This document shows, piece after piece, positions 4,914 through 31,891 of a DNA stretch of 36,120 nucleotides. Source of the stretch: a virus; the IMG/VR virus record IMGVR_UViG_3300048814_000010, positions 1 to 36,120 of that record. One strand, written 5' to 3'. Position numbers and translations under genes: made by a program. Numbering within the stretch: position 1 is the first letter of the stretch; every line of letters begins with the position of its first letter. Under the pieces are notes generated by a model that saw nothing but the letters and a program-made list of their open reading frames with translations, searched no databases and was not told the origin of the DNA.

Positions 4914-4985
4914 TAGCGGGATCGGTACTCGAAACCGACCCTCCAGGTTATGGGCCTGGCGTGGTAACCCCTCCACTATCCCGCA
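4914..4985 (-). tRNA. tRNA-Met (anticodon CAT), atypical
   Basis: Read 5' to 3' on the minus strand, the 72 bases fold as a complete cloverleaf: acceptor TGCGGGA/TCCCGCT, D-arm GTGG/CCAC with loop AGGGGTTA, anticodon stem CCAGG/CCTGG, four-base variable loop AGGG, and T-arm TCGGT/ACCGA with loop TTCGAGT. The anticodon loop is CCCATAA, giving CAT. Two features are odd: position 33 is C rather than the near-universal T, and the 1:72 pair is T:T. A 1:72 mismatch is a mark of bacterial initiator tRNA, but the initiator's three stacked G-C pairs in the anticodon stem are incomplete. The discriminator is A and no CCA is encoded. CAT could also be an Ile2 tRNA after lysidine modification. Confidence 0.8.
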
Positions 4986-7352: not shown

Positions 7353-8375
7353 TTACGCGCTGAGGTTGATGATCTCCGCGTTCCACTGCGGAGCGCGGTT
7401 GACGAGCGTCTCGTACTCGTTGATCATAAACCGCTCGCTGTCGTCGATCTTCGCCAGCGGTTGTGAGCCGATGGTCTGAAGCTCGGCGATCTCGATGATG
7501 TTCTCACCGGCGGTCTTCTCGCAGAGAATGAACGCGCTGGTCAGGCCAGCGGAGGGCTGGATGTACCGGGTCGGGACCAGCGGCAGAGAGCCGAAGTCCG
7601 AGTCGTAGTACATGACCGACACGCCGAGCTGACGCTCGACATGCACGACCCCGTCGCCGTTGACACGGACGAACGACTGGAGCAGCTCGTTGAAGAACCG
7701 CTTCTCGCGCGAGCCCAGCACGATGGCTGTCGGCTCGCCCAGGGCGTCGTAGACCTCCTGGATGACCGTGTTGATCAGCGGGATGCTGACCTTCTGGCCG
7801 CCCGCGAACGTGGAGGCGTCAACAAGGATGCCGCCCTCATTCGCGATGATCCGCTGGGTACCGTCGAACTGGAGGTACTCGACGGTCTGGGAGCCGTCCG
7901 AGTTGGTGACCACGTACGGCTGGGTGGAGTCACCGAACAGGAGGGCACCCTCCTCGCACTGAAGAACCGACACGGTCCGGGACTGCTGCTCCAGCGCGAG
8001 CTGGTCCGCGAAGGACCGACCGGCGGAGATCATCAGACCCGTGACGCGCCCGGTCTCGCCGAGGCACTTGACCTGCTTGCCCTTACGCAGGTACTTGGTG
8101 TTGCCGTCCTGCGGGAGCTGACCGTCAGCGTAGAACGAGCCGAGCCCATTCGTCGCCGTTGAAGACGGTGAGCCGAGGCTCGTGCGCTGCGTGTACTCGT
8201 GCGTCAGGCCGTTGGCCTTGACACGGGGCCACCGCTTACGAAGCGGCGTACCCTTCATGTCCACGCGCGTGATGATGCTTTCGAGGTCTTGACGGAGCAG
8301 AGCGCGCTCCGTGCTATCGACCGCCTTCTCGACGTTCGGTAGATCGAACGCCTCGGGGCTTACGAACTCAGCCAT
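7353..8375 (-). CDS. Major capsid protein (HK97 fold, predicted)
   Basis: A 340-residue protein directly downstream of the protease-scaffold gene, with AAAGGA eight bases before ATG 8375. Features of major capsid proteins include an N-terminal helix rich in charged residues (ALLRQDLESIITRVDMKGTP), a central helix followed by 'AIVLGSREKRFFNELLQSF', a 'GDGVVHVERQLGVSVMYYDSDFGSLPLVPTRYI' stretch typical of the A-domain core, and a C-terminal strand pair (EFIELQ-like, then ERFMINEYETLVNRAP). It would assemble with the scaffold and be matured by the prohead protease. HK97 fold is an inference from gene order and these segments; a structure prediction would settle it. Confidence 0.82.
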   Translation of the reverse strand: MAEFVSPEAFDLPNVEKAVDSTERALLRQDLESIITRVDMKGTPLRKRWPRVKANGLTHEYTQRTSLGSPSSTATNGLGSFYADGQLPQDGNTKYLRKGKQVKCLGETGRVTGLMISAGRSFADQLALEQQSRTVSVLQCEEGALLFGDSTQPYVVTNSDGSQTVEYLQFDGTQRIIANEGGILVDASTFAGGQKVSIPLINTVIQEVYDALGEPTAIVLGSREKRFFNELLQSFVRVNGDGVVHVERQLGVSVMYYDSDFGSLPLVPTRYIQPSAGLTSAFILCEKTAGENIIEIAELQTIGSQPLAKIDDSERFMINEYETLVNRAPQWNAEIINLSA

Positions 8376-17891: not shown

Positions 17892-18499
17892 TAGTGATCG
17901 TGCCTACTGAGCTGGTTCTTGTGCTCCGGGTTGGTGCCGTCCCCGCCGGTCTTGATCCCCTTGAGCTTGGCGTGATCCCAAATCTCCTTCTGGTTGCGCC
18001 TCTTGCCGACACGCTTCGCGAAGACCTTGTTGCGGTAGTTGTCACCCGGCTCAACCCCGAACTTGGGGACGATAGTACCGTCCTCCTCCTTATGGGTCTG
18101 GTCGTACCAGACGCCCAGGTTGCCGGTGCCGTGCGCGTAGTGCTCCGGGTGCTTGGCGATATGCGCGAGCACGAACTCGTGAAGCTCCGCGGCTGTCGGG
18201 GAGCCCTCGACGTCCTCGCTCGCGCTGGACTGGCGGGCTGCGCTGTAGCCGGTCGTGATCTCCTGGCCGGTGCGCGGGTCCACGGTGATGCCACCGTTCT
18301 CGATGGCGGCCTTGGCGTGCTCGCGCGTGAACTGGCCGCCCTCGGGCGAGCCTGCGGGGACGCGCGCTTCGTCGTCGCCTTGGATCATGTGCCCGTAGCT
18401 GCCGCCTGTTTTGTCCACGTCACCTAGTGTAGCAGTCTTCTCGGCCTTCGGCTTCGGCGGGTGCAGAGCATCCCAGAGTGCCTTGTCAACGGGGCTCAC
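17891..18499 (-). CDS. Capsid-associated protein with VPAGSPEGGQF motif
   Basis: A 202-residue protein from GTG 18499 (GTGA overlap with the polyvalent gene). The motif ARVPAGSPEGGQFT at about residues 45-58 is a short sequence often found in actinophage head-associated and MuF-linked proteins. The C-terminal half ('NLGVWYDQTH', then 'RNQKEIWDHAKLKGIKTGG') resembles a small domain repeatedly seen in phage polyvalent proteins, with a WYD strand and an NQxxIWD helix. Function unknown. The neighbour and motif suggest it is packed in or attached to the capsid together with the MuF protein. Confidence 0.6.
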   Translation of the reverse strand: MSPVDKALWDALHPPKPKAEKTATLGDVDKTGGSYGHMIQGDDEARVPAGSPEGGQFTREHAKAAIENGGITVDPRTGQEITTGYSAARQSSASEDVEGSPTAAELHEFVLAHIAKHPEHYAHGTGNLGVWYDQTHKEEDGTIVPKFGVEPGDNYRNKVFAKRVGKRRNQKEIWDHAKLKGIKTGGDGTNPEHKNQLSRHDH

Positions 18500-21400
18500 T
18501 TGTAACCAGCTTTCTTGTCCTCAGCGTCATTCCAGGCTTTGTTCTTCAGCTTAGCAGACGCCTCGGCATCGACAGGCCCCGGGTCGGTATTGCCCTTTGT
18601 CTGCTGGTACTCGTCGTCGCTCATCCCCTCGGGCTTGTCCTTGTCGGGCGCAGGCTTCTCGTTGAGGTAGACGTGGGTAATGCCGTGCTGGTTCTCGTAG
18701 TCCACAAAGTGCTCAACCTCCTTGACCTCGAACTCGCCCGCAAGAACACGCTCGTGTTCGCCCGCGTTGCCACCGAGCAGCTCAAAAGCCATTGTCTTGG
18801 GAGGGACGTGCAAGATGACCTTCTGCTTCTTGTTGTACGCCGCGACCGTGGAGTTCGCCATCCCCCCGAACATATCGGCAGTGCTTTCGCTGGAGGTCCA
18901 GGACGAGATTGGCACGTCGATCTTCTTGCCTGCCACGAATAGACGGTCGATGTCAGCCTGAGCCATTCGGACGCCGCGGTGCAACGGCACGTAGGAGGGG
19001 CGAGCGTACTCTGCTGCCTGCGCCATAAAGGTGTGGGCCAGCCGCACTCCTGTTGCCTGGTCGGCTTCTGGGTAGGCAGTACCAATCTCATCATCGGCTT
19101 GATACTCGTCTGGGGCTAGCTCGGGGGTTGGCGCGTTGCCGAGCGCGACCTTCTTGATCTCAGCCTCGAACGCAGCGTCTACCACATCGTAGCCGGGCAT
19201 ATCTTCGTCGTTGCGAGGGTGCTTGGCGTGACCCTCCCGCGGGTTGTACGGATAGCAGTGGACCCACGTAGCAACCGACTGCTCGCGCAGGCTACGTGCG
19301 GCGGTCGCGGCCTTGGCTTCCGGGGTGTCCAGGTTGTAGAGTGTGTTCTCACGGATCGCGCGGTCATTGTCCCGGCGCTCCACGTCGGATCCACCGGCAC
19401 GTGTCCACTCGCCCGGATGGATGCGCCCCTCGCTCTTGCCGCCCTTGGGGATACGCAGCTCGGTGGCCTTGACGACATCAAATGTAGCGGAGTCGCTATA
19501 TTTGACGGCCTCCTCCTCCCCGACACGCGGGACGGTGCCCTGCCCCTTCTCCTGGAGCTTCTGCTGGATCGTCTCACGGTCCACCAGCTTGCCTGACTCG
19601 TCCCGGTTAGCGACCTTGTCCTCCGGGTTGCCGACCGACTGCTGCAAGCGAAGCTCGGCGGCGAGGCTGTCGCGACCGTTGCGCTCCTGCGGGGTGTCCG
19701 AGTACAGGATGCGATTCGAGCAGGGTGCCTGGGCTCCGCGGCGCCAGATCCGGGCGATGCGCTGCTGAAGGTCCGCGTTGTTCTGTGGCATGTCGGCGTG
19801 GATCATCTGTGTCGCGCCGTTCTGGAACACGCCACCGTTGTCGCCGAACTGGAGTGAGCGCGCGGTCTTGTTGGTGTCGGAGGTGATCAGGACCGCGGCA
19901 CCCTTGCAGGCGATGAAGTCGCGGAGCACCCGGTCGTTTGCGGCGGCGTCGCCTCCCTGCGTGTAGAACACTTTGCGCCCCCCACGACGCTCAAGTTCTT
20001 CACGGATCGGCTGGAGCGGCTGGGTTTCCGCTCCGAACACGACCGCCTTGGGCGCATACGTGCCAGCGTTCTCGCCGTCTTGGTGGGTGTGGTGACCCTT
20101 GAAGCCTGCGAACTCGGTGGGCTTCTGTCCTTCGATCATGTCCGCGATCTTGTTGACGCGCGCGTTCGGGCCTTGGTAGCCGCGCTGTTGTGGCTTCATC
20201 AAGGCGGACATCTGTGCGCCACGGCCACCGAACGACGGGAGCTTAGGCAGGTCTTCGTTCGGGACGCCTGAAAGCTTCTGGCGGTGCCGCTCCTCCCATG
20301 CCTCGTTGAACTCTTGGGCTGCGTCAGTGATCGCTGCGGTGTGCCCCTCCTCCAGCGGGGCGTCCACCCAGTCGAGTTCGGGGAACGGCGGCATCGCGCT
20401 CATGTTCGGTGCCTGGAAGAACGCGCCGTCGGCGCAGCTCTCACGGAACTGTTGGACACGCTCGTTGCCGGTGAGCTGGTCGAACTGGTTGAGCTGTCCG
20501 TAACGGTCGCTGAAGGCACTCTTCGAGCCGTAGTGGCCGGGCTTCGCCCAGTTGAGCAGGGTGTGAAGCTCGCCCATGTTCTTCTCCAGCGGGGTGCCTG
20601 TCAGTGCCCAACGGTGTTCAACGGCACTAGGGGTGGCGGCAGCCATCACGCCAGCGTAGTTTTGAGTGTCTTCGTTCTTGTAGTATTGTGCCTCATCGGT
20701 GATCACGATGGTGTGGCCGAGATCCTTGACCAGCTCGGGGTTCTTGGCGAGCGTCTGGAAGCTGACGATATTGAAGTCGCCGGGCTGCTGCAACGCGCGC
20801 TTCTTCGGGCCCACGCCCTTCGACTGCTCCCAGTCATAGGTGGCAGGGTCGTCGCCTTCGCCTGGGCCTGCACGCCCGAGCACGGTCATGCTTTTGCCGG
20901 GGCAGGTCTGCTGGATCGTCTTCGCCCATGTGCCTGCGACCGCGGTAGCTGGAGCGACGATCAGGACGCGCGTGCCAGGCTTCTGGCTCATAAGCTCAAG
21001 AGCCGCTCCGATAGCTGTGTCTGTCTTGCCGACACCCGGCGCAAACGCAAGCACCCCAGAGCCCGCTGCTCGCAGGTACAGCGAGCCTTGTGCCTGGGCA
21101 CGGTCGAGGGTGCGCGAGTAGCCGGGCGGGTGTGAGGCAGTCTCGATAGCGGCATCCATGTCTTCGCCGGTGCGGATGTCGTGCAAGAGCCCCGCGTTGG
21201 GGTCGTGACCTTCTGACGGCGCAAGGAGTGAGCTGATCTGCTTGGCGCTGAGCTTCAGGTTGTAGCGCCCGGCGCCTTCGCGCTCAATCATCGACGGGGT
21301 GACGTGGACGTCCGCCTTGTGTGCCAGCTCCATGATCAGCGCCTTCGAGCCGAACCCTTCGACGCGCACCGTGTCGATCTTCTTGCCGAGCATCGTCTGA

Positions 21401-24378
21401 AGCGTGTGCAGGGCTTCGCTGCCCGCAACGGCCATACCAAGCGACTGGGCGGCCTCACGCATCTTGCGGACCTGCCGTGAGCGCGCAGCGGTCAGCGTGA
21501 ACATGCTTTCGCCCTTGGCGCTTGCCTTGAGTTCTTCACCGGCGGCGGCTGCCTCGCGTGCAGCGAAGCGTGCCCGGTTGAGGTCGAGACGCATGATCGC
21601 TGACTGGCGCTCGTCGGTGATGTCGTCGATGGTGGACTTGAGCTTGTCCATGTCGAGGTCACCGGCGTCGGTGGCCTTCCGTAGCTCGTGCGCCATGATC
21701 TGTGCGGTGCCGTTCACGCCGAGTAATGCCTGGAGGCGGGTGGGGAGCACTGTCTTGCCGAACACGCTGTAGCTCAGCGAGTCGAAAGCGTCGAAGCAGC
21801 CGTGTTGGATTGCCTGAGAGACAAGCGAGTTGGATCGCTTGCGTGCAGTCTCGACGTCGTTCAGTAGCTCCCGGTTGATCTCGGTAAGGGCCTCAGAGGC
21901 CGCTTTGCGTTGTGCTTCCGCAGGCGCGTCAATGGGTGACCAGTCGAGTCCGGCACTGTCCTCTGGCCGCGTCTCCCCGGAAAGGACCTTATTAGCCTCC
22001 CGAACTCGTCTGCGTAGGGCGCTGGCGGTCGCAAGCTCCTCGTAGATGCTATCCGCGTCTTCTGTTGAGAGAGCAAGACGCGGACGGACTCGGCTTGAGC
22101 GTTCAGGCTCCTCGTTGTAGATCGAGTCTTCGGTGTCTTCGTCTGTATCGTCGGCGGGGGTGTCGTCGGAGGATGCAGGGCTATCGTCCTTGTCTCGGGG
22201 GGCTGGGGTGACTACGATAGGTCCGACCGGCGCTTCGCTACGGTTCGCGTCGGACAGGTTACCGTAGGTGGACTGGTACAGGCTGTCGTGTGTGGCGCGT
22301 TGGATCAGCTCGTGCTGGTCAGCGGAGGACAGGTCATCCCATTTGACGGGCTCGCCTGCGACCAGGGCGCCGCGGTCTTCGACCAGGCGTTGCACGTGCG
22401 CCTCGACGCGGTCACGCGCTTCGCGGAGGAGCTGCTGGGCTGTGGCCTTGCCTTCGCGGGCTGTGTTTGCCATCTCCTCGGTGACCTCGCCTGGATCATA
22501 TTGGCGTGGCGGCTTCGCTGCGCCCTTGCGATCCATGCGGCCCTTCTCACCGATCCGCACATGGTCGAGGTGGTGGCCTGCGCCGCCAATGATCGAAGCG
22601 GTGCCGTCGCCGTTCTCGCGCACGAGCACCGGGATGCCCTTCTCGTCGTCGCCGTGCGGGTGTATCGTGATCCAGTGTTCTGTGCCTACCGCGGTGTGGT
22701 TGACCTCGGCACGCTTGAAGATGTGCCAGCGTGAAGGCTTCTCGATGGTGGCGTGCGGGAACACCTTGTCGAGCGGCGTCGCCTCCAGGATCGCTTTGAC
22801 CTCCACCAGTGGACCGTACTGGTGGACGTACTGCCAGATGAAGTTGCCGATCCCGTAGGTGCCGGTCGCCTCATCGTAGCCCTGCTTGCGCAGGTCGTGA
22901 AGGACGGTGTATGCGGCCTGAAGTTCGGCGAGCGCGCGGTCACGTGTCTCGGGTGGTTCGCCAGGACTGTAGGCACGGAGAGCCGCGGTCAGGTCGTCGG
23001 CGAGCTGTGCCGCGACCTGCACCCATTCGGGGTGCTCGACCGCGAACTCTCCGCCCAATCCCTCCAGGATGTGTTCGTTGACGACGTCCTCGCTGTACGG
23101 GACGGGGAGCGGCGGGGTGACCCATGTGTTGGCGGCCAGGTCGTAGGCGGGCTGGTTGGACGCGCGCACGTTGTACGCGAATAGGCTGGGCGAATCTTCG
23201 GGCCGGATGAAGGCGTCGAGCGGCAGGCCCGGGGCGACCTCGAAGTCGCCGAGCGCAAGCTTGGTCTGGGTGACGAGCGCGACGTGCAGCTCCTCCTCGG
23301 TGAGCTTCGCGTACTCCTTGTGCGCCGTGCGGAGCTTGTCGTAGTCCACCACGATCTGGAGGTCGAGGTCACCGATAGCGGACTTCTCGCCCCACATGTA
23401 GGTGCAGACCGAGCCGGACAGGTAGATCGAAGACCAGTCCCCGGCGTCAGCGCCGAGCGTGTGGTGCCACCAGTCGATGATGCGCTGGCGCACGTCGTGG
23501 CGCAGCTTGATGCCGGACCAGACGAGCGGGTCGAGTCCGGGCTCAGGGTTGTCGAAGAAGCCCTTCGCGACGTCCTGGTCGTGCCGGTACTTCTCGACTG
23601 CGGAGCCGAGCATCAAGGTGTACGGATCGACGCTTGCGATGTCCTCAGCGGTGTAGGTCTTGTACTGGATCTCGGCGAGCTGAGCGAGACGCGGGTCGTT
23701 CGCGTATTCGGGCTTGAGCTGGCCGGACGACTCGAACATCTCGTCGAGCGCGCGTCCCGTGAGCCCGAGATCCTCGGCTGCCTTGTACTGGGCCTGCATG
23801 TCCTCGTACACGCTGGGGACGTAGGCGACCGCGACATGACGGCATTGCGGGTGGAGTGGGATGCAGGCAACCCATTCGCGGGTGGGCTTGCCGTAGTTCG
23901 AGCCGTCACGGAACTCGTCGATCTTGAATATCTTGTTCTCGATCAGGCGCTTGCACTGGGAGCATGAGCCGACGTGTGGCGGAACCCACACCCGCTCGAA
24001 GCCCATCTTCTTGCAGGCGTCCAATCGTCCCATGTGGTTGGCGCGGATCATCTCGGTGCGTGCGATCAGCCGCCAGTTGATCTCCGCCTCATGGGTGGCA
24101 TGGTAGATCCAGGATGCGACCTGTGTGGGGTTCACGGCCTGCTGTGTGCCGTACAGGACAGCGGAGCGGATCTTGTCCACGTAGCGGTCCACTGCACCCT
24201 CGAACTCGTGGAGGGTGTAGGTGCGCAGCCACTTCAGCGCGTTGACCTTGGTTGGTGCCTCGCCGCCGAAGAAGTCGAGGCCGTGCGGCAGGTCGCCGGT
24301 CATCTCGATGAACTGGGTGATCTGCTGCTCCCCCAGGTCGTAGCTTTTCGCCGGATGGGAGCGTGCCTCATCCATCAT
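18496..24378 (-). CDS. Polyvalent protein: MuF + nucleotidyltransferase + SNF2 helicase + ADP-ribosyltransferase
   Basis: A 1960-residue protein. Residues about 50-195 match the MuF/SPP1 gp7 head morphogenesis domain (RLIARTEMIRANHMGRLDAC; cysteine pair C139/C142 and HPQCRH). Residues 318-345 have a nucleotidyltransferase core (LSGSVCTYMWGEKSAIGDLD). Around 565-610 is the EHWITIHPHGDDEKGIPVLV segment seen in other phage polyvalent proteins. Residues about 1095-1570 are SNF2-type: Walker A APGVGKT, DEAQ at 1228-1231, ALTGTP at 1258-1263 and QQRIARIWRRGAQ near 1538-1550. Residues about 1795-1890 form an R-S-E ADP-ribosyltransferase: LHRGV (R1801), SSWTSS (1825-1830) and EHE (E1874/E1876). The likely role is packaging in the capsid and delivery with phage DNA. 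ATG 24378 has GGAAG upstream. Confidence 0.82.
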   Translation of the reverse strand: MMDEARSHPAKSYDLGEQQITQFIEMTGDLPHGLDFFGGEAPTKVNALKWLRTYTLHEFEGAVDRYVDKIRSAVLYGTQQAVNPTQVASWIYHATHEAEINWRLIARTEMIRANHMGRLDACKKMGFERVWVPPHVGSCSQCKRLIENKIFKIDEFRDGSNYGKPTREWVACIPLHPQCRHVAVAYVPSVYEDMQAQYKAAEDLGLTGRALDEMFESSGQLKPEYANDPRLAQLAEIQYKTYTAEDIASVDPYTLMLGSAVEKYRHDQDVAKGFFDNPEPGLDPLVWSGIKLRHDVRQRIIDWWHHTLGADAGDWSSIYLSGSVCTYMWGEKSAIGDLDLQIVVDYDKLRTAHKEYAKLTEEELHVALVTQTKLALGDFEVAPGLPLDAFIRPEDSPSLFAYNVRASNQPAYDLAANTWVTPPLPVPYSEDVVNEHILEGLGGEFAVEHPEWVQVAAQLADDLTAALRAYSPGEPPETRDRALAELQAAYTVLHDLRKQGYDEATGTYGIGNFIWQYVHQYGPLVEVKAILEATPLDKVFPHATIEKPSRWHIFKRAEVNHTAVGTEHWITIHPHGDDEKGIPVLVRENGDGTASIIGGAGHHLDHVRIGEKGRMDRKGAAKPPRQYDPGEVTEEMANTAREGKATAQQLLREARDRVEAHVQRLVEDRGALVAGEPVKWDDLSSADQHELIQRATHDSLYQSTYGNLSDANRSEAPVGPIVVTPAPRDKDDSPASSDDTPADDTDEDTEDSIYNEEPERSSRVRPRLALSTEDADSIYEELATASALRRRVREANKVLSGETRPEDSAGLDWSPIDAPAEAQRKAASEALTEINRELLNDVETARKRSNSLVSQAIQHGCFDAFDSLSYSVFGKTVLPTRLQALLGVNGTAQIMAHELRKATDAGDLDMDKLKSTIDDITDERQSAIMRLDLNRARFAAREAAAAGEELKASAKGESMFTLTAARSRQVRKMREAAQSLGMAVAGSEALHTLQTMLGKKIDTVRVEGFGSKALIMELAHKADVHVTPSMIEREGAGRYNLKLSAKQISSLLAPSEGHDPNAGLLHDIRTGEDMDAAIETASHPPGYSRTLDRAQAQGSLYLRAAGSGVLAFAPGVGKTDTAIGAALELMSQKPGTRVLIVAPATAVAGTWAKTIQQTCPGKSMTVLGRAGPGEGDDPATYDWEQSKGVGPKKRALQQPGDFNIVSFQTLAKNPELVKDLGHTIVITDEAQYYKNEDTQNYAGVMAAATPSAVEHRWALTGTPLEKNMGELHTLLNWAKPGHYGSKSAFSDRYGQLNQFDQLTGNERVQQFRESCADGAFFQAPNMSAMPPFPELDWVDAPLEEGHTAAITDAAQEFNEAWEERHRQKLSGVPNEDLPKLPSFGGRGAQMSALMKPQQRGYQGPNARVNKIADMIEGQKPTEFAGFKGHHTHQDGENAGTYAPKAVVFGAETQPLQPIREELERRGGRKVFYTQGGDAAANDRVLRDFIACKGAAVLITSDTNKTARSLQFGDNGGVFQNGATQMIHADMPQNNADLQQRIARIWRRGAQAPCSNRILYSDTPQERNGRDSLAAELRLQQSVGNPEDKVANRDESGKLVDRETIQQKLQEKGQGTVPRVGEEEAVKYSDSATFDVVKATELRIPKGGKSEGRIHPGEWTRAGGSDVERRDNDRAIRENTLYNLDTPEAKAATAARSLREQSVATWVHCYPYNPREGHAKHPRNDEDMPGYDVVDAAFEAEIKKVALGNAPTPELAPDEYQADDEIGTAYPEADQATGVRLAHTFMAQAAEYARPSYVPLHRGVRMAQADIDRLFVAGKKIDVPISSWTSSESTADMFGGMANSTVAAYNKKQKVILHVPPKTMAFELLGGNAGEHERVLAGEFEVKEVEHFVDYENQHGITHVYLNEKPAPDKDKPEGMSDDEYQQTKGNTDPGPVDAEASAKLKNKAWNDAEDKKAGYK

Positions 24379-24483
24379 CTGCGTCTTCCAGTCAGCAAGG
24401 ACCTGTTCGACGTTCTGGTATTCAGCGACGGAAAGCCTCCGGGAGAGCGGAGGCTGGTCTGCGGTAGGTATGATGCGACCCTT

Positions 24484-24570
24484 CTAGGTTCGCGGAGGAC
24501 GGCCGAAGATGTCGAGCAGGACGCGCGTGATGAGGATGGCGAAAACGACGATGATCAGAAGGCTGATCAT
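24484..24570 (-). CDS. 28-residue membrane peptide
   Basis: A very small gene starting with an ATGA overlap on the previous gene. The product is a single hydrophobic helix (MISLLIIVVFAILITRVLLD) with a short basic tail (IFGRPPRT). It ends in TAG. Downstream, the same frame stays open for about 35 codons into the polyvalent gene with protein-like content. Function unknown; membrane-located on composition alone. Confidence 0.5.
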   Translation of the reverse strand: MISLLIIVVFAILITRVLLDIFGRPPRT

Positions 24571-24647
24571 CTGTGCCACCACGCCCAGACGGCGGGCCAC
24601 GAGCAGAACGCGACGATGGCGAAGAAAACGACCCAGCCTGCGAGCAT
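24567..24647 (-). CDS. 26-residue membrane peptide
   Basis: Starts with TAATG on the preceding gene and ends with ATGA on the next. The peptide (MLAGWVVFFAIVAFCSWPAV followed by WAWWHR) is one aromatic-rich membrane helix with a basic end. The double overlap is hard to explain by chance. Function unknown; lysis or membrane-defence roles are possible. Confidence 0.5.
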   Translation of the reverse strand: MLAGWVVFFAIVAFCSWPAVWAWWHR

Positions 24648-24835
24648 TAGCCGAGGTCCTCCACGAGAGAGACCACGGCATCCTTGACGCGGTCGGCGGC
24701 TATGAGTAGCTGAACGCAATGATCCTCGGTGGAGTGGTGGGGGTCGCCGGTCAGAGCCATGCGCAGGTCCATGGTCGCGTTGTTCACGGCGAGACGTGCG
24801 TTGGACTGCTGTAGAGACTCGGTGAGGATGCTCAT
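24647..24835 (-). CDS. Small helical protein
   Basis: A 62-residue soluble protein (MSILTESLQQSNARLAVNNA..., then HHSTEDHCVQLLIAADRVKD) that is probably all helical. It overlaps the upstream gene by ATGA and the downstream one by TAATG. No known family. It belongs to the small-gene run between the GH16 enzyme and the polyvalent gene. Confidence 0.55.
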   Translation of the reverse strand: MSILTESLQQSNARLAVNNATMDLRMALTGDPHHSTEDHCVQLLIAADRVKDAVVSLVEDLG

Positions 24836-25038
24836 GGGTACTCCAGTCTCTCGATGACCCGTCGCTCCAGTCTCTCGACGCTTGCGCGTTCAAGGGAGAC
24901 GCGATACTCCAACTCGGAACGCCTGGACGGCACCATTCCGAAGTGCCTGCCCCACAACTCAAGCTCGTACTCGGCGTCCGCGAGACGCATACGAGCGCGC
25001 CCGAGACGGCGCTCAAGTCGTCTGACTCTGCCGATCAC
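24832..25038 (-). CDS. Arg-rich coiled-coil protein
   Basis: A 68-residue protein from GTG 25038, which shares bases with the upstream TGA (GTGA); AAGGTG lies upstream. The sequence is a basic coil (RVRRLERRLGRARMRLADAE, then YRVSLERASVERLERRVIE). A longer frame upstream overlaps the GH16 gene and is low-complexity. Possible oligomerisation or DNA-contacting protein; the role is unknown. Confidence 0.55.
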   Translation of the reverse strand: MIGRVRRLERRLGRARMRLADAEYELELWGRHFGMVPSRRSELEYRVSLERASVERLERRVIERLEYP

Positions 25039-25979
25039 TGCCACACCTTGACCGATGCGACCTTCATCACCAGCGGGAACACCGTCGTCGCGTCCGGCGC
25101 GGGCGCCCACCCGTCGCCAGGCCAGCCGACGCCAACGTTGATCCGCGGGTAAAGCGCCTGGTTGTCAAACGGCCACCGGTAGTCCGGGTGGTCCGCGTTC
25201 CACTGCGTGGACGTCACCTGGAAGGTCGCCTGGCCGTTGATGGCGACCGTGATGATGCCCGGCTGCCAGTCCAGTGACGCCACGATAGGCTTCGTCGTAT
25301 CGACCGGAGACGACCCGCCAACCTCGTCACCGTCGGTGTAGGCGTGGATCGTGACGTGGTTCAGGTTGAGGTTGGCGCTCTGGATCTCAAGCACGTCGAT
25401 CTCGCGGCCCACGCCTACGGGCGCCGCGGGGTCAATGAACCAGACCGCGAACCATGCGCCCGCCGTGCGCGGGACCGACGTGACATAGGTGTCGAACTGG
25501 CCGTGGCCCCACGTCACGCCGGGTGTCTCGATCATCCCTGACGTGTACGGGTGGCCGCCGCCGTCGATTGACTGGTTGCGTAGCGTCAGCTTCACGCCGG
25601 AGCCGTCGAGACTGACACCCGAGGCGTCGTACAGGGTCGTCGCATATCCGTCGTCGCCCTCGTGCGGCACCCAGTCTGCGGGTAGCTTGGTCCCGTTGAA
25701 CTCGTAGTCCTTGACCAGTGTCTTGTAGCTCCTGATCAGCACCATGCCCGCGGCGAGCGTGATCGGCTGTGGACCGGCCGCTGGGGGCGGCGGGGGCGGA
25801 GCTGGTTTGACGATGGCGCCCGGGGTGAGCGTCACTACAGCCTGATTCGGCTTCACGCCGAACGTGACGCTGTGCGGCTGCAACTGGTTGGCCGGTGGGT
25901 GCTCAGAGGCCGTCGATGTGACCGTGACCGGAAGCTCCGAGCCATCTCCGAACGGAACGGTAAACGTGGTAGAGGTCAC
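25035..25979 (-). CDS. Glycoside hydrolase family 16-like enzyme
   Basis: A 314-residue protein (GTG start). Residues 1-55 form a beta-rich N-terminal domain (TFTVPFGDGSELPVTVTST), followed by a proline linker (KPAPPPPPPAAGP). Residues about 85-314 look like a GH16 beta-jellyroll: GHGQFDTYVTSVPRTAGAWF, then the catalytic-type motif EIDVLE (193-198; E193 nucleophile, D195 helper, E198 acid/base by family rules), then NLNHVTIHAYTDG, and a late YPRINVGVGWPGDGW. GH16 enzymes cut beta-1,3/1,4-linked polysaccharides such as laminarin or agar-type glucans and galactans. Here it is probably virion-borne or released to strip surface glycans. There is no signal peptide. Confidence 0.75.
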   Translation of the reverse strand: MTSTTFTVPFGDGSELPVTVTSTASEHPPANQLQPHSVTFGVKPNQAVVTLTPGAIVKPAPPPPPPAAGPQPITLAAGMVLIRSYKTLVKDYEFNGTKLPADWVPHEGDDGYATTLYDASGVSLDGSGVKLTLRNQSIDGGGHPYTSGMIETPGVTWGHGQFDTYVTSVPRTAGAWFAVWFIDPAAPVGVGREIDVLEIQSANLNLNHVTIHAYTDGDEVGGSSPVDTTKPIVASLDWQPGIITVAINGQATFQVTSTQWNADHPDYRWPFDNQALYPRINVGVGWPGDGWAPAPDATTVFPLVMKVASVKVWQ

Positions 25980-26284
25980 GATAGCTCCCCCCCGATCTCG
26001 TAATGGTCGTGGTTGTAAAGAATCGTCTCGGCGACCCCGGTGATGTCCCGTAAGACCTGCAACGTCGCCATGTAGTGGTCGGACATGTCGGAGAGACGCC
26101 GCTCCAGGTCCAGGGCGTTGCGCTCAGCGATACGGCGCTGGTCGCCAATCCAGTTGATGCGGCCCGTCATGCTCATACCCGACGGGGCGCCCTCAGCACG
26201 TAGCGCCATATCCACGGTGACGAGCTGATCGCCAAGATGGACGTAGGGGCCGGGCAGCGTGGTGGACCGGACACCGTAGCTCAT
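25976..26284 (-). CDS. Hypothetical helical protein upstream of the GH16 gene
   Basis: A 102-residue protein from ATG 26284; the longer frame overlaps the small gene at 26289 and is low-complexity. The N-terminus reads SYGVRSTTLPGPYVHLGDQL and the rest is a helix-rich region (RIAERNALDLERRLSDMSDH). The end overlaps the GH16 start by GTGA. No known family and no clear ribosome site. Function not known. Confidence 0.55.
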   Translation of the reverse strand: MSYGVRSTTLPGPYVHLGDQLVTVDMALRAEGAPSGMSMTGRINWIGDQRRIAERNALDLERRLSDMSDHYMATLQVLRDITGVAETILYNHDHYEIGGELS

Positions 26285-26288
26285 GCGA

Positions 26289-26429
26289 TCACGACGTCCA
26301 CTTGGGGGCCCATGTGAGTCGCCATCCGTGGCGGAGTGGCAGGACGTGACAGCCACGTAGCCGAAGCCGCCTGTTGTCGGTGAGCCTGTCGTTCGGGGGG
26401 CCAAGTAGCGCGAGGTGCGCCCCGACCAT
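26289..26429 (-). CDS. 46-residue basic protein
   Basis: A small gene filling the gap between two larger ones. ATG 26429 has a strong AAGGA seven bases upstream. An earlier in-frame ATG at 26444 overlaps the previous stop (ATGA) and would give 51 residues. The product (MVGAHLALLGPPNDRLTDNR...) is Arg-rich towards the middle and ends WAPKWTS. Unknown function. Confidence 0.42.
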   Translation of the reverse strand: MVGAHLALLGPPNDRLTDNRRLRLRGCHVLPLRHGWRLTWAPKWTS

Positions 26430-26440
26430 GATGACTTCCT

Positions 26441-26707
26441 TCATGTGATCACCCGTGTCGTGAAGACGTCGCCGTTCTTGATCAGCGCAGCATCCTCATG
26501 TGGGCCGAGCATCCTGCGCTTGACCTCGAAGTCAGTGGTGGACAGCACCCCGGCCACCTCGGCGAGCGAGGCGTAGCTGACCTTGCGGACAAACAGGAAA
26601 CGGTCGATGGCGCGTGCGAGCACATAGGCTAGTTCGGCGGATGTCTCGGGCGGGGTCGCGTTCTGGTCAAGCTTGCGGCGACGGACTGTGTCTGCGATGT
26701 AGGGCAT
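26441..26707 (-). CDS. DUF6899-like protein
   Basis: An 88-residue protein that begins MPYIADTVRRRKLD and ends GPHEDAALIKNGDVF. The pattern of MPYI opening, a central helix (AYVLARAIDRFLFVR), SYASLAEVAGVL, and a final R-R-x(2)-G-P-x-E-D with NGDVF matches the small phage family known as DUF6899. The biochemical role of that family is not known. It is a compact helical protein in a chain of small accessory genes. Confidence 0.62.
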   Translation of the reverse strand: MPYIADTVRRRKLDQNATPPETSAELAYVLARAIDRFLFVRKVSYASLAEVAGVLSTTDFEVKRRMLGPHEDAALIKNGDVFTTRVIT

Positions 26708-26709
26708 GG

Positions 26710-27171
26710 CTAGAGTGTAGCAGCCTCGACGGCAGCACGTCGGTCTAGTGCTTCGCGGACGATCTCTGGGGGTGCTGCATACAAGTGGTCACGAACCTGC
26801 GCGGTCGCGTTGTTGAGACAGGTGTCGCCCCGACCCCCGTAGCGGACCATCGCTGTGAGGACTGACCACAGGAGACGGCGGTCTTGTGTCCGCTCGATCA
26901 GGAGCGCGTTGATCAGGACCTCACGGTCCGTGAGCGTATCCGTCAGCGCCTTCCGCTCGATCATAAGCGAGTTCGCCAGCTCCTCGCGGGCCTTGAGCGC
27001 GACATCCCACTTCTCGTGGTCCGGGATCTGGCGGGTAAGGAGGTCACGGCGGATTGTGGCGAGCACAGCCACAAGCGCGCCCTCCTGGTGGACGATGGGG
27101 TTGTAGTGGGGCTGCGTGTCGATCAGCCCGTCGTACATCCACTCGCACAGCTCGGTGTCGATCTCACCCAT
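26710..27171 (-). CDS. Hypothetical helical protein
   Basis: A 153-residue protein from ATG 27171, overlapping the upstream gene by eight bases. It is helical throughout (EGALVAVLATIRRDLLTRQI, KWDVALKAREELANSLMIER) with a polar C-terminus. An acidic opening (MGEIDTELCEWMYDGLID) may be a binding surface. No known family. A longer frame up to 27216 is possible but lies over the previous gene. Confidence 0.58.
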   Translation of the reverse strand: MGEIDTELCEWMYDGLIDTQPHYNPIVHQEGALVAVLATIRRDLLTRQIPDHEKWDVALKAREELANSLMIERKALTDTLTDREVLINALLIERTQDRRLLWSVLTAMVRYGGRGDTCLNNATAQVRDHLYAAPPEIVREALDRRAAVEAATL

Positions 27172-27577
27172 GATGCGGCACCCCCCCGTTGCTTTGGCCT
27201 GGGGGGCAGCCTTCACGTAGCTCCCGGAGACGCTGGGCGCGCTTGACCTCCAGTTCGGCGGTGGTGGGGGTTGCGAGGATCACGCCACCCGACTGTTCCC
27301 GGTGGGCTTGCGCCTGGATGCACAGGTTGGTCAGGATGCCCGCGATCTGTGCTGCGAACTCCGGGGTCATGTAGCCGAACGTGACGGTGTGCTGTGCCTT
27401 CAGGTCACCGGCGATCAGGTTGATACGGATACGCTCTGGGGGGTGACCCTCCTCCTCGGACAGCTCCAGTGCGAACTGGACGCTGCTGAGCAACAGCTCG
27501 GTGGCTGAGATGACCGGGCCTTCAGCGGCGGGCTCCACGTCACCGACGGTGATCTCCTCGTTGGGTTCTTCGCTCAC
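27164..27577 (-). CDS. Hypothetical acidic protein
   Basis: A 137-residue protein from GTG 27577, coupled to the previous frame by GTGA. It has an acidic N-terminus (SEEPNEEITVGDVEPAAEG), a middle that looks folded (RIRINLIAGDLKAQHTVTFG, then YMTPEFAAQIAGILTNLCIQ) and a helical basic tail (ELEVKRAQRLRELREG). No recognised family. The frame is open for another 114 codons upstream, but that portion shows non-coding composition and covers a strong hairpin. Confidence 0.6.
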   Translation of the reverse strand: MSEEPNEEITVGDVEPAAEGPVISATELLLSSVQFALELSEEEGHPPERIRINLIAGDLKAQHTVTFGYMTPEFAAQIAGILTNLCIQAQAHREQSGGVILATPTTAELEVKRAQRLRELREGCPPGQSNGGVPHHG

Positions 27578-27885
27578 TTCTTGCCTCGCTTCGGTCGTGG
27601 GCCTGTATTGCGCTTCGCCTGATCGGAGGATAGCACAAGGTCGTCTATGTGAAGGGAGTCCACCCCCCGGGCCGCGCGCTGGCCCTGCGCATGGGGGGTG
27701 GATACTGCTATGTCTCCGCGCGATAGGCCCGGGCGTCGGGATGGGTGACGCGGAACCTCGCGAGCGCATAATCCATGTTGTGCCCCCGGAACACCAGGTA
27801 CCGGGTGGATAGATCTCGGTGACGTTCGATGGAGCTGTCGGACGGCTCCCGGTAGTAGAATGCGGTACCAGCCCGCCTCGCTCAT
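27574..27885 (-). pseudogene. Small gene with an apparent +1 frame break
   Basis: The frame from ATG 27885 (ATGA overlap with the sponge gene) opens as MSEAGWYRI but then turns into atypical Arg/Pro-rich text with poor codon position 3. The +1 frame from about 27858 to its TAG at 27708 instead reads as a plausible protein (TAFYYREPSDSSIERHRDLS, then RYLVFRGHNMDYALARFRVT) with good codon use, yet has no start of its own. Either a base was inserted or lost, or a +1 shift joins the two. A hairpin follows at 27660-27701. The original product would have had about 58 residues. Confidence 0.5.
27660..27701 (-). terminator. Strong double-stem hairpin
   Basis: CCACCCCCC (27660-27668) pairs with GGGGGGTGG (27693-27701), and inside this GGGCC (27669-27673) pairs with GGCCC (27681-27685). 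It follows the TAG at 27708 and precedes the GTG at 27577. It could end or slow transcription, or mark an RNA-processing point. It has no T-tract. Confidence 0.45.
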
Positions 27886-28211
27886 GGCGTGTGGGTTCCT
27901 TCGACGCCGCGTGCCTCACGGATCAGAGTGCGCTCAGTGAGGGCAAGCTTGGCTTCGGTGAGAGCGACGATGGCACGCTCGTTCTCCTTGCAGGCAAACC
28001 TGCCGTCTGCTGCTGTCTGGTAGAACGTGAGCCGTTCGATGGCTGCTTCGATCACGTCTTCGACGAACGCGCCGGTCGGCTCCTGACGGTCTAGGCCGCG
28101 GCCGAGTGGACCGTTCTGCCATTGGATCTGGATGCCGGTGCCGTCCGTAAAGCCGCCGGTCGGGTTACCGTCGCTGTCCTGGCAATGTAGGATGCTGATG
28201 CGTTGCCTCAC
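27882..28211 (-). CDS. Acb2/Tad1 hairpin-domain protein (predicted cyclic-nucleotide sponge)
   Basis: A 109-residue protein. After a short N-terminus it carries IQWQNGPLG, then EPTGAFVEDVIEAAIERLTF, FACKENERAIVALTEAKLAL and the ending RTLIREARGVEGTHTP. The order of an F-V-E-D-V-I helix, an F-x-C-x-E-N-x-x-A-I helix and R-T-x(2)-R-x(2)-R-G-V-E-G-T-H is the pattern I know from the phage Acb2/Tad1 hairpin family. Members studied bind cyclic di/trinucleotides (anti-CBASS Acb2) or glycocyclic ADP-ribose signals (anti-Thoeris Tad1), so they block second-messenger defence. Which ligand this protein binds cannot be read from the sequence. It is coupled on both sides by ATGA overlaps. Confidence 0.7.
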   Translation of the reverse strand: MRQRISILHCQDSDGNPTGGFTDGTGIQIQWQNGPLGRGLDRQEPTGAFVEDVIEAAIERLTFYQTAADGRFACKENERAIVALTEAKLALTERTLIREARGVEGTHTP

Positions 28212-28537
28212 GATGTCTCCTCTGGGAATAGTCTAGCGCGGTGTGCGGACACAGCCTCCGCGCGCTTAGCGACCAGCTCGGGGTCGGGGTGCTGGGATTG
28301 GGACATGGCCGCGTAGCCCTCGATGCGGAACGTCTCATCGTCGGGGATCGGCTTGGGGTCGGGCCATTCGGGGAAATGGATTCGGTAGTACTCAACCTCG
28401 CTCAGGTCCATCTCGTTGCCGATGTCTTTGGTGGGCCTCTTCGCTACCAGCTCGTCATGGAGATGTTCGAGCTGGTCGAGGGGTGTCTCGGGGGTCTTGG
28501 TGAGGGCTTTGAGAGCTTTGAGTGGATCGGGGGTCAT
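28208..28537 (-). CDS. Hypothetical acidic protein upstream of the sponge gene
   Basis: A 109-residue protein with a helical N-terminal third (LKALKALTKTPETPLDQLEH), an acidic tract with YYRIHFPEWPDPKPIPDDE, and a helical C-terminus (ELVAKRAEAVSAHRARLFPE). ELVAKR occurs twice (about residues 29 and 87). No clear ribosome site precedes ATG 28537, unlike its neighbours, and a possible -10 element (TACAAT) lies 17 bases upstream, so it may start a short transcript. No known family. Confidence 0.6.
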   Translation of the reverse strand: MTPDPLKALKALTKTPETPLDQLEHLHDELVAKRPTKDIGNEMDLSEVEYYRIHFPEWPDPKPIPDDETFRIEGYAAMSQSQHPDPELVAKRAEAVSAHRARLFPEETS

Positions 28538-28554
28538 TTGTAGGTTCAGTGTCG

Positions 28555-28560
28555 ATTGTA
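28555..28560 (-). promoter_or_regulatory. Possible -10 promoter element
   Basis: On the minus strand TACAAT lies 17 bases before ATG 28537 in a 37-base gap, where the sequence is AT-richer than its surroundings. I see no convincing -35 box. If used, it would give a very short leader for the gene before the Acb2/Tad1-like sponge. Weak evidence. Confidence 0.2.
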
Positions 28561-28574
28561 GTGCGGAAAACTAC

Positions 28575-28745
28575 TTACACGTCTCGGTGGTGGTGATGAC
28601 GGGAGAGATGGGGATGCCAGGCATCCTCCCCCCGCTTATGCCGGTCGTGTGGATGGGGGTTGTGGTCAAGCAGGTGGACTGTCACGATCATCGACATAAC
28701 CGCGAGGATCATGCCTGCCAGGAGCGGCCAGAACAGCCAGCCCAC
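28575..28745 (-). CDS. Small membrane protein with a His-rich tail
   Basis: A 56-residue protein from GTG 28745, which shares a base with the upstream TAG (TAGTG). The first 27 residues form one membrane helix (GWLFWPLLAGMILAVMSMIV). The tail has 11 histidines in about 36 residues, including HNPHPHDRH and HHHH. Such a tail could bind Ni, Zn or Cu or change charge with pH. Function unknown. Inside the gene, GGATGCC-A-GGCATCC (28612-28626) is a perfect inverted repeat. Confidence 0.55.
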   Translation of the reverse strand: MGWLFWPLLAGMILAVMSMIVTVHLLDHNPHPHDRHKRGEDAWHPHLSRHHHHRDV

Positions 28746-28954
28746 TAGAGCGTCTCCCGTCCATAGACGGCGACCACGTACTCCCGTGCGAGCAGCATCG
28801 GCGTGCTCGCGCCCCAGCTAGTGTCGGCCATCGTAAGACTGAGAAAGTCCCCATTCCTGGATGCACTCAGAAGGCGGGACACCTCATCCACGGTCTGGGA
28901 GACTCGGGCGGACCGTGGGGCGTCCCTCATCACGATCTCTGTCCAGACCTTCAT
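28745..28954 (-). CDS. Small hypothetical protein
   Basis: A 69-residue protein (MKVWTEIVMRDAPRSARVSQ..., then SASRNGDFLSLTMADTSWGA) that ends in a strand (EYVVAVYGRETL). ATGA overlap with the previous gene and TAGTG with the next. Compact alpha/beta by eye, with no recognised family. Confidence 0.58.
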   Translation of the reverse strand: MKVWTEIVMRDAPRSARVSQTVDEVSRLLSASRNGDFLSLTMADTSWGASTPMLLAREYVVAVYGRETL

Positions 28955-29352
28955 GGGATGTTCTCACCCTCATCCTCGGGCTCGTCTTCGGTAACGTAGG
29001 GCGAGACGTGCCCATGAGCATGGATGCGACGGACGAGCTGGCTGCGCTTCTTGGGGTCCAGGCTGTCCACGTAGTCGATGACCGCTCCCTGTGTGAGCGT
29101 CGTCTCCAACAGCTCGCCGAAGATCGGCTCGGGTAGAACGGTCGCCAACCCGCTGAAGTCGAAGACCTCGTCCATCTTCAGGTCGAACCTCTCACGCAGC
29201 CAGCGCACGACCTCGACGGCATCGACGCGCCTAACGAGAACACTCTTCCCCTCCTCAACCTCCATACGGGCCAGTGGCGCACCGCCGTGGATACACTCGC
29301 GGAGCCGACCCGTGCTTGAGGAGCCCTGCCATTTGTAGTCCTGCTGCATCAT
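28951..29352 (-). CDS. Hypothetical protein with acidic C-terminus
   Basis: A 133-residue protein. Residues 15-60 include LRECIHGGAPLARMEVEEGK and a helix (VDAVEVVRWLRERFDLKMDE). Residues 60-110 are helical, and the tail is acidic (YVTEDEPEDEGENIP). No family recognised. ATGA overlaps on both sides tie it to the DUF6378-like and the 69-residue genes. Confidence 0.58.
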   Translation of the reverse strand: MMQQDYKWQGSSSTGRLRECIHGGAPLARMEVEEGKSVLVRRVDAVEVVRWLRERFDLKMDEVFDFSGLATVLPEPIFGELLETTLTQGAVIDYVDSLDPKKRSQLVRRIHAHGHVSPYVTEDEPEDEGENIP

Positions 29353-29705
29353 GCCTCCTTGTAGTGATCCATGACCATCTGGTACGTCTCTGCGTACCCT
29401 GCGATGTCCACAACACTATCATGCTTCGAGGGCGTCTGTTGCAGCCGTGAAAGCTTGACGCAGATCATCGCCAATGCCACCTGCTCCGGTTTGACGTCCC
29501 AGCCGAACAGTGCCTTCCACATCCCTGCGGTGCGCTCGAAGTCCTCGTGTGGGGGACCGTAGTCTCGACCGCGGTCAGCGTGAACTAGGGTGTGGGCCTC
29601 TTTGCACGGGGACTGGAAAGACGACACCTTGGGCTCGAAGTCCTCGGCCATAAAGGGAGGACCCACGTCGGGCCGCGGCGTGCAGTCAGCGAGTGTGGGC
29701 GGCAT
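29349..29705 (-). CDS. DUF6378-like protein
   Basis: A 118-residue protein from ATG 29705, preceded by GGGAGG. The core motif 'RGRDYGPPHEDFERTAGMWK', then 'EQVALAMICVKLSRLQQTPS' and 'KHDSVVDIAGYAETY', is the pattern of the DUF6378 family common in tailed phages of many hosts. The conserved acidic and Lys residues suggest an enzyme-like or nucleotide-binding role, but no activity is established to my knowledge. It sits beside a DUF4406-like gene, a pairing consistent with nucleotide metabolism or defence-related chemistry. Confidence 0.75.
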   Translation of the reverse strand: MPPTLADCTPRPDVGPPFMAEDFEPKVSSFQSPCKEAHTLVHADRGRDYGPPHEDFERTAGMWKALFGWDVKPEQVALAMICVKLSRLQQTPSKHDSVVDIAGYAETYQMVMDHYKEA

Positions 29706-30213
29706 CGAGATCCTCCCGTGAGGTTGGGGTCAGGGGCTGCCCTCCGGCATCGTTGTAGTCCCAGACCGGGAGCTTGCAGATGCGAGCCACGAACGTCTCC
29801 AGCCGTGCCCCACGCGAGCGTGACCAGCCCGGCAAGACAACGACACCCTCGACAGAACCACCACCAATCAGCTTGACGTCACGCGCCAAGAAGTCCGCCC
29901 AGCTCTCCCCGTTCGCCGAGCCCGAGCCGGGAGCACCGTCAGGGGACGCTATGGCTACAGCGCGCGTCTCGGGATTATCCAGCTCGGCGGGTGAGAACAC
30001 CTCGTAACCCAGGTCGCGGAGCCGGGTTGCAGCGGCGTCGAAGGCAGGGATGTTGAACGCGGGGATGCCGGTCATCGGCCCCGCGAGATAGAGGGCCGCC
30101 CCGTGCTCGGGCCTAAGTGTTGGTGGGGTGATGATCTTCCCGCACCGGGCACACGACCCACTGTAGCGGGGGTCAGCGGATACGAGGTGTTCCTGTCCGT
30201 CTAGGCAGGGCAT
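29686..30213 (-). CDS. DUF4406-like protein with N-terminal zinc ribbon
   Basis: A 175-residue protein. The N-terminus has CLDGQEHL and CARCGK, a likely small zinc site. Residues 40-150 match the DUF4406/nucleoside deoxyribosyltransferase-like pattern: YLAGPMTGIPAFNIPAFDAA, then LRDLGYEVFSPAELD, WADFLARDVKLI and VEGVVVLPGWSRSRGARLE. Proteins of this superfamily act on N-glycosidic bonds of nucleosides, so a role in nucleotide turnover is plausible. Its stop lies 20 bases inside the next gene. A TAATG links it to the small gene upstream. Confidence 0.75.
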   Translation of the reverse strand: MPCLDGQEHLVSADPRYSGSCARCGKIITPPTLRPEHGAALYLAGPMTGIPAFNIPAFDAAATRLRDLGYEVFSPAELDNPETRAVAIASPDGAPGSGSANGESWADFLARDVKLIGGGSVEGVVVLPGWSRSRGARLETFVARICKLPVWDYNDAGGQPLTPTSREDLDAAHTR

Positions 30214-30392
30214 TACGCCTCCTCACGCTCCATGAACCGCTCTATCGCGGACTGGTGCTTAGCCTTCGTACGAGCCAGCCGGGCGGCCGGTCGCGCCTTC
30301 TCCTGGTACTTGGCTCGGGCGGCGAGGTGAGCCTCGTCTGTTTCGTGCCGCCGAGAGTGCCAGCCGTGTGGCCGCTTGCCTCCGTCTCCCAT
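30213..30392 (-). CDS. 59-residue basic protein
   Basis: A small gene fitting exactly between two others: its ATG follows a TGA directly and its TAA overlaps the next ATG. The product (MGDGGKRPHGWHSRRHETDE..., then AHLAARAKYQEKARPAARLA) is Arg/Lys/His-rich and helical, ending AIERFMEREEA. It could bind nucleic acid. No family recognised. Confidence 0.55.
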   Translation of the reverse strand: MGDGGKRPHGWHSRRHETDEAHLAARAKYQEKARPAARLARTKAKHQSAIERFMEREEA

Positions 30393-30653
30393 TCAGATCG
30401 CCACCAATTCACCGTTTTGACGAACTGGAGCGACCTTGGGATGCTTCCAGCCTTGATGGTCCTCGCACATGCAGTGGCGCAGGCGGGGGGTAGACTTCTC
30501 GCCGTGGCGGGTGCGGTGGATGTGTTTGCCGATCATGCCGCGACCGGCGGGCTTGCCGACGCGCGCGCGGTACCCCTGGCACTTGACTTTGTTGCGTCCA
30601 CCCTTTGAGCTGCCACCCACCTTCTGGGACTGCTGTTGTCCGCCTCCCGGCAC
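30393..30653 (-). CDS. Basic Cys/His-containing protein
   Basis: An 86-residue protein from GTG 30653 with GGAGG upstream. The sequence is strongly basic with loose low-complexity at the start (MPGGGQQQSQKVGGSSKGGR) and a possible metal site at the end (RHCMCEDHQGWKH). NKVKCQGYRARVGKPAGRG lies in the middle. It may bind RNA or DNA. No known family. Confidence 0.55.
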   Translation of the reverse strand: MPGGGQQQSQKVGGSSKGGRNKVKCQGYRARVGKPAGRGMIGKHIHRTRHGEKSTPRLRHCMCEDHQGWKHPKVAPVRQNGELVAI

Positions 30654-30654
30654 C

Positions 30655-31854
30655 CTACTTCACCTCCAAACAGTCGATCTTGTGGACCCCGGTGATCCCC
30701 CACTTGGGGTGGAACGCCGCGAGTAGCTGCACCGGCGGGACACCGTTGCCGTACTCGTCCATGCCGTACTCGTCCACGCCCTTGAGTGAGCCGTTCACAA
30801 GGATACTAAAGTCCTCGGCGATCTGCGGGTTGTGCCAGTGGCCGCCCATCACGTGGTCGATGTGGATGTCAGCGAGCCCGAACAGCTTGCCAAGACGGTC
30901 GGCGTGACGGGTGATGCCGCCCCACGGCACCCCAGCCATTGAGGAGCGCACACCGTTGCCGTGCGTGAGGTAGATGGTACGACCGCAGACCTGTACGATG
31001 GCCTTGTTCGCCTTGGGGACGTTGACCGTGATGTTCGGGCAGCCACGCAGCCGGTTGCGCGCGATACAGCCCGCGATGTAGTCGCCGTTGTCGAACGCGA
31101 CCTTGTGCCGGTCCTTCTTAGCGAGGCGCGGATGGTTGCCGACGATCCAGTCGATGTCGATGGTGTCGAACTCGTCGCCGAACTCCTCGTTGATCCAGTC
31201 GGCGCACTCCTCACCGAAACGGACCACGCTGTCGGAGAAGCACATCTCGTTGGTCTGTGCCAGCTCCTCGTGAATCACGCCGGAGACCTGGTCGCCGAGA
31301 CTGAAGATGCGCAGAGCGCGAGACTTGGCACCATAGTGGTCGCGGTGCGAGCGCACGCCCTCAGCGAGGCGCTGAAGACGCTTCTGCATGATGGACCAGT
31401 CGTACTGGTTCAAGCCAACCGTCTCGACGGGGGACACGACCTCGGAGGCATGACAGTCGGAGAAGAGGAGCGCCAGCGTGTGGGCCTCGGTCGCGCTATG
31501 GGCGACACGAGCCTTGGGCTTGTACGTGGGGACGACACGCTCGATACTCGCCTCCAACGCACCCTGCACCCGAGCGTCGCGAACATCCTCATCGCGAGCG
31601 AGCGTCAAGGCGTGACGCGCCTCGGCCAGCTCCTTGGTGAGGATCTCCTCGCGTGAGACCGGCGTGCCCACAGTGCCAGCGGCAGGTGCCGTGGTGCGGC
31701 GAAGGTTGGTGACCGCACGTACCTGATCGCGGATGTCTAGCGCGGTGACACGCGCGTCGAGGGTTTGCCGATTGACGTCTGTCTTGCGGGCATAGGCCGA
31801 GAGAGTGCCATACTCCCTCACGCCCGTGACGATCTCTTCTGCCGTCAGATCCAC
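30655..31854 (-). CDS. Metallophosphoesterase with N-terminal helix-turn-helix
   Basis: A 399-residue protein. Residues 1-45 look like a helix-turn-helix (VREYGTLSAYARKTDVNRQT). The catalytic domain from about residue 125 has all calcineurin-like metallophosphoesterase motifs: FSDCHASE, SLGDQVSG, VGNHPR, LTHGNG and GGHWHNP. These bind two metals and hydrolyse phosphomonoesters or phosphodiesters. In phages such enzymes may act on DNA ends, cyclic nucleotides or RNA; the substrate here is unknown. It follows the portal gene by about 37 bases. GNHPR replaces the usual GNHD/E, a small departure. Confidence 0.85.
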   Translation of the reverse strand: MDLTAEEIVTGVREYGTLSAYARKTDVNRQTLDARVTALDIRDQVRAVTNLRRTTAPAAGTVGTPVSREEILTKELAEARHALTLARDEDVRDARVQGALEASIERVVPTYKPKARVAHSATEAHTLALLFSDCHASEVVSPVETVGLNQYDWSIMQKRLQRLAEGVRSHRDHYGAKSRALRIFSLGDQVSGVIHEELAQTNEMCFSDSVVRFGEECADWINEEFGDEFDTIDIDWIVGNHPRLAKKDRHKVAFDNGDYIAGCIARNRLRGCPNITVNVPKANKAIVQVCGRTIYLTHGNGVRSSMAGVPWGGITRHADRLGKLFGLADIHIDHVMGGHWHNPQIAEDFSILVNGSLKGVDEYGMDEYGNGVPPVQLLAAFHPKWGITGVHKIDCLEVK

Positions 31855-31891
31855 GATGTCTTACCTCCCGGTGGTGTGCTCGTGGTGATAG

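Follow-up and report, generated by a model that had tools for sequence, protein, structure and literature searches.

The question raised by this locus is whether a short open reading frame lying among the structural genes of a virus encodes a protein that captures the nucleotide signals of the CBASS and Thoeris defence systems. The window analysed is the whole of IMG/VR record IMGVR_UViG_3300048814_000010 (36,120 bases). In it, the first-pass annotation had assigned an open reading frame at 27882–28211 to the Acb2/Tad1 hairpin superfamily. The reading frame is real, but it lies on the minus strand, which that annotation left unstated, with a GTG start codon at 28211, a TGA stop codon at 27884–27882, and a product of 109 amino acids (hereafter, the query). 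The motifs on which the assignment had leaned, FVEDVI, FACKENERAI, and RTLIREARGVEGTH, are all found exactly in the translation. A plus-strand reading of the same interval was ruled out, as stop codons interrupt the frame.

The start codon is preceded by a strong, well-spaced Shine-Dalgarno sequence (AGAGGAG plus spacer, 28212–28225, minus strand) and overlaps the stop codon of the gene upstream (GTGA), and the codon-position GC content of the gene (0.66/0.49/0.73) resembles that of the other genes in this phage. The gene had been described as part of a run of coupled small genes, which holds on the upstream side (28208–28537) and probably fails on the downstream side. There, an open reading frame on the minus strand (27574–27885) directly follows the sponge gene with an ATGA overlap, and it is probably not a gene because its codon-position GC content is atypical (0.73/0.58/0.61). 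No promoter was found on the sponge gene's own strand; the region holds one promoter-like match, a smaller number than shuffled sequences gave on average. The search for RNA elements returned none.

Tad1 is a sponge of CBASS and Thoeris signals (PMC12043709, PMC12657218), and the query is a clear relative of it, in a large sister branch. PHROG 2428 matches both the query (2.4e-16) and SBSphiJ7 Tad1 (8e-47), which places them in the same family. Direct comparison of the query by phmmer with CmTad1 (8kbb) gave 4.8e-6, and BLASTP against SBSphiJ7 Tad1 gave 1e-15, with 41% identity over 79 residues. When a profile of the clade, built from the query and 41 close relatives (42 members), was compared with solved structures, it matched CmTad1 (8kbb, 1.7e-16), CbTad1 (7uav, 3.5e-13), and phiKZ gp184 (8y6v, 7.2e-9), and nothing else convincing. 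When the profiles of the query clade and the SBSphiJ7-type clade were aligned to each other, the E-value was 2.9e-32 over 76 columns. In our tblastn searches, we found homologs in 24 phage records, two of them annotated as Tad1, and 109 confirmed relatives in IMG/VR, of which the best 80 were kept; the alignment used here holds 72 sequences. The nearest named phages are Vibrio phages 1.244.A, VP-1, and VAP7, whose homologs are 42–50% identical to the query, and the VP-1 relative is named "Acb2/Tad1 hairpin domain-containing protein" in UniProt. At the DNA level, no near relatives were found among named phages.

It is worth noting that the HMM check proposed in the first-pass annotation turned out negative, in that the single query sequence did not match PF24729 (Acb2_Tad1_hairpin), an outcome that the annotation itself had named as refuting. 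This miss says little because the model is narrow: it spans 58 positions with a curated cut-off of 27 bits, and while SBSphiJ7 Tad1 scores 34.2 bits, a member of the clade of proven Tad1 proteins (L061) reaches only 14 bits. The query likewise went unmatched in Pfam, NCBIfam, and PADLOC, and we did not take these blanks as refutation, since the searches with PHROG and against solved structures do match and NCBIfam misses SBSphiJ7 Tad1 as well. For the query clade as a whole (loci L002–L054 and the window gene), PF24729 overlooks most members, matching 9 of 42 even at E ≤ 1. Therefore, counts of anti-CBASS and anti-Thoeris genes made with PF24729 are too low.

The predicted fold narrows the superfamily assignment, which the profile, PHROG, profile-profile, and fold comparisons support, to the Tad1 type. 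The AlphaFold2 model of the query, made with the 72-sequence alignment, has a pLDDT of 94.9 and a pTM of 0.82, and consists of three strands (residues 5–11, 17–24, and 27–31) followed by two helices (50–70 and 75–100). The N-terminal sheet of Tad1 has been described with four strands (PMC12043709), of which three are called in our model. In Foldseek, the top 18 PDB matches are Tad1 structures without exception, and complexes with gcADPR, cA3, and cAAG are among them. In VIA-align, the model superimposes on CmTad1 with a Z of 10.4 (98 residues, 1.9 Å) and on gcADPR-bound CbTad1 with a Z of 10.1 (100 residues, 2.5 Å), whereas non-Tad1 chains score 6.4 or less and mostly cover the hairpin alone. 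The model of the VP-1 protein is close to that of the query (TM 0.90, rmsd 1.1 Å). As modelled, the query is a Tad1-type protein with a beta-sheet and a hairpin, and not an Acb2-type protein, since it has an N-terminal beta-sheet and Acb2 does not.

Model and alignment together divide the protein into three parts, all encoded on the minus strand. The N-terminal beta part (residues 5–50, 28062–28199) carries in the alignment of the query clade the motif DxxGNPxGG...GxGxxIxWQNGP. It is followed by the hairpin of two long antiparallel helices (residues 50–70 and 75–100, 27912–28064) and by the conserved C-terminal tail RGVEGTH (residues 101–107) with the protein end (27885–27911). In the 72 aligned proteins, seven positions (Q32, G34, G47, A80, R94, R98, and E104) show no variation at all; therefore, the reading frame is not a product of chance. 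N77 is kept in 71 of the 72, Y or F occupies position 64 in the same number, and R60 of the hairpin is near-invariant. The query is nonetheless divergent within its own clade, with an end branch of 0.55. Its NG motif has a T, its hairpin loop contains a short insertion, and K88 stands where most relatives have L.

The tree of the core shows a two-way split with 100/99 support, although it was built from few columns and includes three characterised Tad1 proteins. All three, SBSphiJ7 Tad1, CmTad1, and CbTad1, fall on one side, and the query, the protein of Vibrio phage 1.244.A, and the bulk of the IMG/VR relatives fall on the other, where the forks are mostly unresolved. The Tad1 sponge family thus gains a sister clade, with more than 50 distinct members here. 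A terminase gene was considered as a constant neighbor and rejected: of 60 loci in the query clade, 11 have one at a distance of up to about 5 kb, as do 12 of 20 in the other clade. This is a trend and not a rule, and 7 of 10 neighboring terminase calls checked by Pfam are terminases.

Overall, the computed homology, fold, and helix-side conservation make it quite likely that the gene encodes a Tad1-family sponge for CBASS and Thoeris signals, and from these we infer its oligomeric state, binding, ligand, and protective effect. The query resembles the characterised Tad1 proteins (SBSphiJ7 Tad1; CbTad1, 7UAV/7UAW/8SMD; CmTad1, 8KBB–8KBD) in its PHROG, in its fold over nearly all residues, and in the conserved residues of the helix side, and it shares the RGVEGTH tail with SBSphiJ7 Tad1. 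By contrast, its N-terminus is shorter. The protomers, each with its N-terminal beta-sheet and two-helix hairpin, would assemble as in solved Tad1, first into dimers and then into a hexamer. The sponge would then bind stoichiometrically, and without degrading them, the signals produced by CBASS and Thoeris in the infected cell, for which cyclic trinucleotides, cyclic dinucleotides, and glyco-cyclic ADP-ribose are candidates. With the signal held in this way, the effector would not be activated and the cell would not abort infection.

Among these candidates, our first bet for the ligand would be a cyclic trinucleotide, for example cA3. The query residues Y64, N77, R94, and R98, aligned to CbTad1, are kept as Y/F, N, R, and R across the 72 proteins. 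We take R109 and R113 of CbTad1 to be its cyclic-trinucleotide site, and they align with R94 and R98, whose invariance is the reason for this choice. CbTad1 F82 and N92, which presumably contact gcADPR, align with Y64 and N77, and we treat this residue correspondence as a lead. We are less sure of gcADPR or cyclic dinucleotides as ligands, because the N-terminal segment, which is expected to line the pocket, is not the same as in the characterised clade. In the query clade, this segment reads GNPxGG and GxGxxIxWQNGP, and in the other clade, NAPHxF...FQEGPI; the query itself carries GNPAGG where the characterised clade has NAPH.

The same difference allows another reading, in which the protein keeps the build of a Tad1 sponge but its clade has moved to a different nucleotide signal, such as a further derivative of ADP-ribose, and has lost binding to the CBASS and Thoeris signals known for Tad1. 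The strongly supported split and the separately conserved N-terminal motif (GNPxGG and GxGxxIxWQNGP versus NAPHxF and FQEGP) speak for such a shift. However, the hairpin residues hardly vary over the two clades together and the C-terminal tail is common to both, which favors the same class of ligand, and we consider the shift improbable. An extension of it, which we offer as speculation with a similarly small chance of being right, is that the query clade may represent a second great branch of Tad1, carried by Vibrio phages and by uncultured phages from the environment. In this view, its altered N-terminal pocket would take a nucleotide signal that the characterised Tad1 proteins do not bind, and would thus point to an undescribed defence signal. 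Comparison of pocket residues between the two clades makes the choice of ligand by these sponges directly testable.

A further alternative concerns the place of action, as the Tad1-type fold might belong to a protein that forms part of the virus particle or travels with it, either with a structural role or injected with the DNA to act immediately on entry. PhiKZ gp184 (8Y6V), which like PHROGs 22140 and 23843 has a Tad1-type hairpin at its C-terminus, is injected into the host and interacts with the inner body of that phage (PMC10449902). Therefore, the hairpin domain need not mean a free cytoplasmic sponge. The gene also sits within the structural run, as the first-pass annotation had said in placing it near the capsid genes. 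On the minus strand, the main genes run from the portal gene (33931–31892) through a 7.5-kb stretch to a MuF-type head protein starting at 24378, and on through the head genes to the major head protein (8375–7353); the tail sheath comes last. The sponge gene lies between the portal and MuF genes, in the same direction as the head operon, and from this position its expression is likely late. In addition, a relative in Bacillus phage P59 is named "putative structural protein," but this name comes without stated support and the neighboring genes there encode a DNA polymerase, a recombinase, and a sigma factor rather than head proteins. Moreover, gp184 is a protein of 230 amino acids with a long N-terminal part of some 160 extra residues, whereas the query is the bare Tad1 core, and SBSphiJ7 Tad1, which is equally compact, works as a free sponge. 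On balance, a role in the particle appears unlikely, and a free Tad1-type sponge remains our preferred reading.

The two-helix hairpin is also found in Acb2 (PaMx33, T4 Vs.4), which is grouped with Tad1 in PF24729, and T4 Vs.4 (7uq2) aligns at a Z of 6.1 over 57 residues, within residues 49–109 of the query only. This shared hairpin speaks for an Acb2-type protein that consists of the helical hairpin only and binds CBASS cyclic nucleotides alone. Such a protein is nevertheless very improbable and already disfavored by the predicted fold, since residues 1–48 form a beta-sheet region that aligns with Tad1 and has no counterpart in the Acb2 layout of a hairpin plus a short N-terminal helix; there is no whole-length match to Acb2.

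The stretch that bears the Tad1-type sponge gene looks like a cargo island inserted into the structural operon. It extends for about 7.5 kb between the portal and MuF genes (24379–31891, minus strand) and contains, besides the sponge gene, a phrog_284 exonuclease, DUF4406, DUF6378, DUF6899, a GH16 glycosidase, and genes of unknown function. The wider counter-defence region suggested by the first-pass annotation found no support, as no named defence or anti-defence family was matched among the neighbors scanned. The insertion reading comes from comparison with related phages, in which the portal and MuF genes directly abut. They are adjacent in three related contigs, near-identical to each other, whose portal and major head proteins are 52 and 73% identical, respectively, to those of the window, and in the contig examined in full (L093) the portal stop overlaps the MuF start at 7790. 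A family-profile search of the related contigs (L092–L095), which are partial, found no sponge.

Downstream of the island, the MuF-type head domain is part of a 1,960-amino-acid protein (18496–24378, minus strand) in which it is followed by an SNF2-type helicase (Pfam SNF2, 7.3e-21; phrog_62, 6.5e-49), whereas the MuF protein of L093 has only 580 amino acids and no helicase. A helicase this large, if carried in the virion, could act against restriction in the manner of P1 DarB. The C-terminus of the same protein resembles, by eye, an ADP-ribosyltransferase. The GH16 glycosidase domain (25035–25979, minus strand; Pfam, 5.2e-7) lies inside the structural operon and may perhaps serve in capsule or wall degradation. 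Finally, a single tRNA-Met (CAT) gene is located within the structural region (4914–4985, minus strand).
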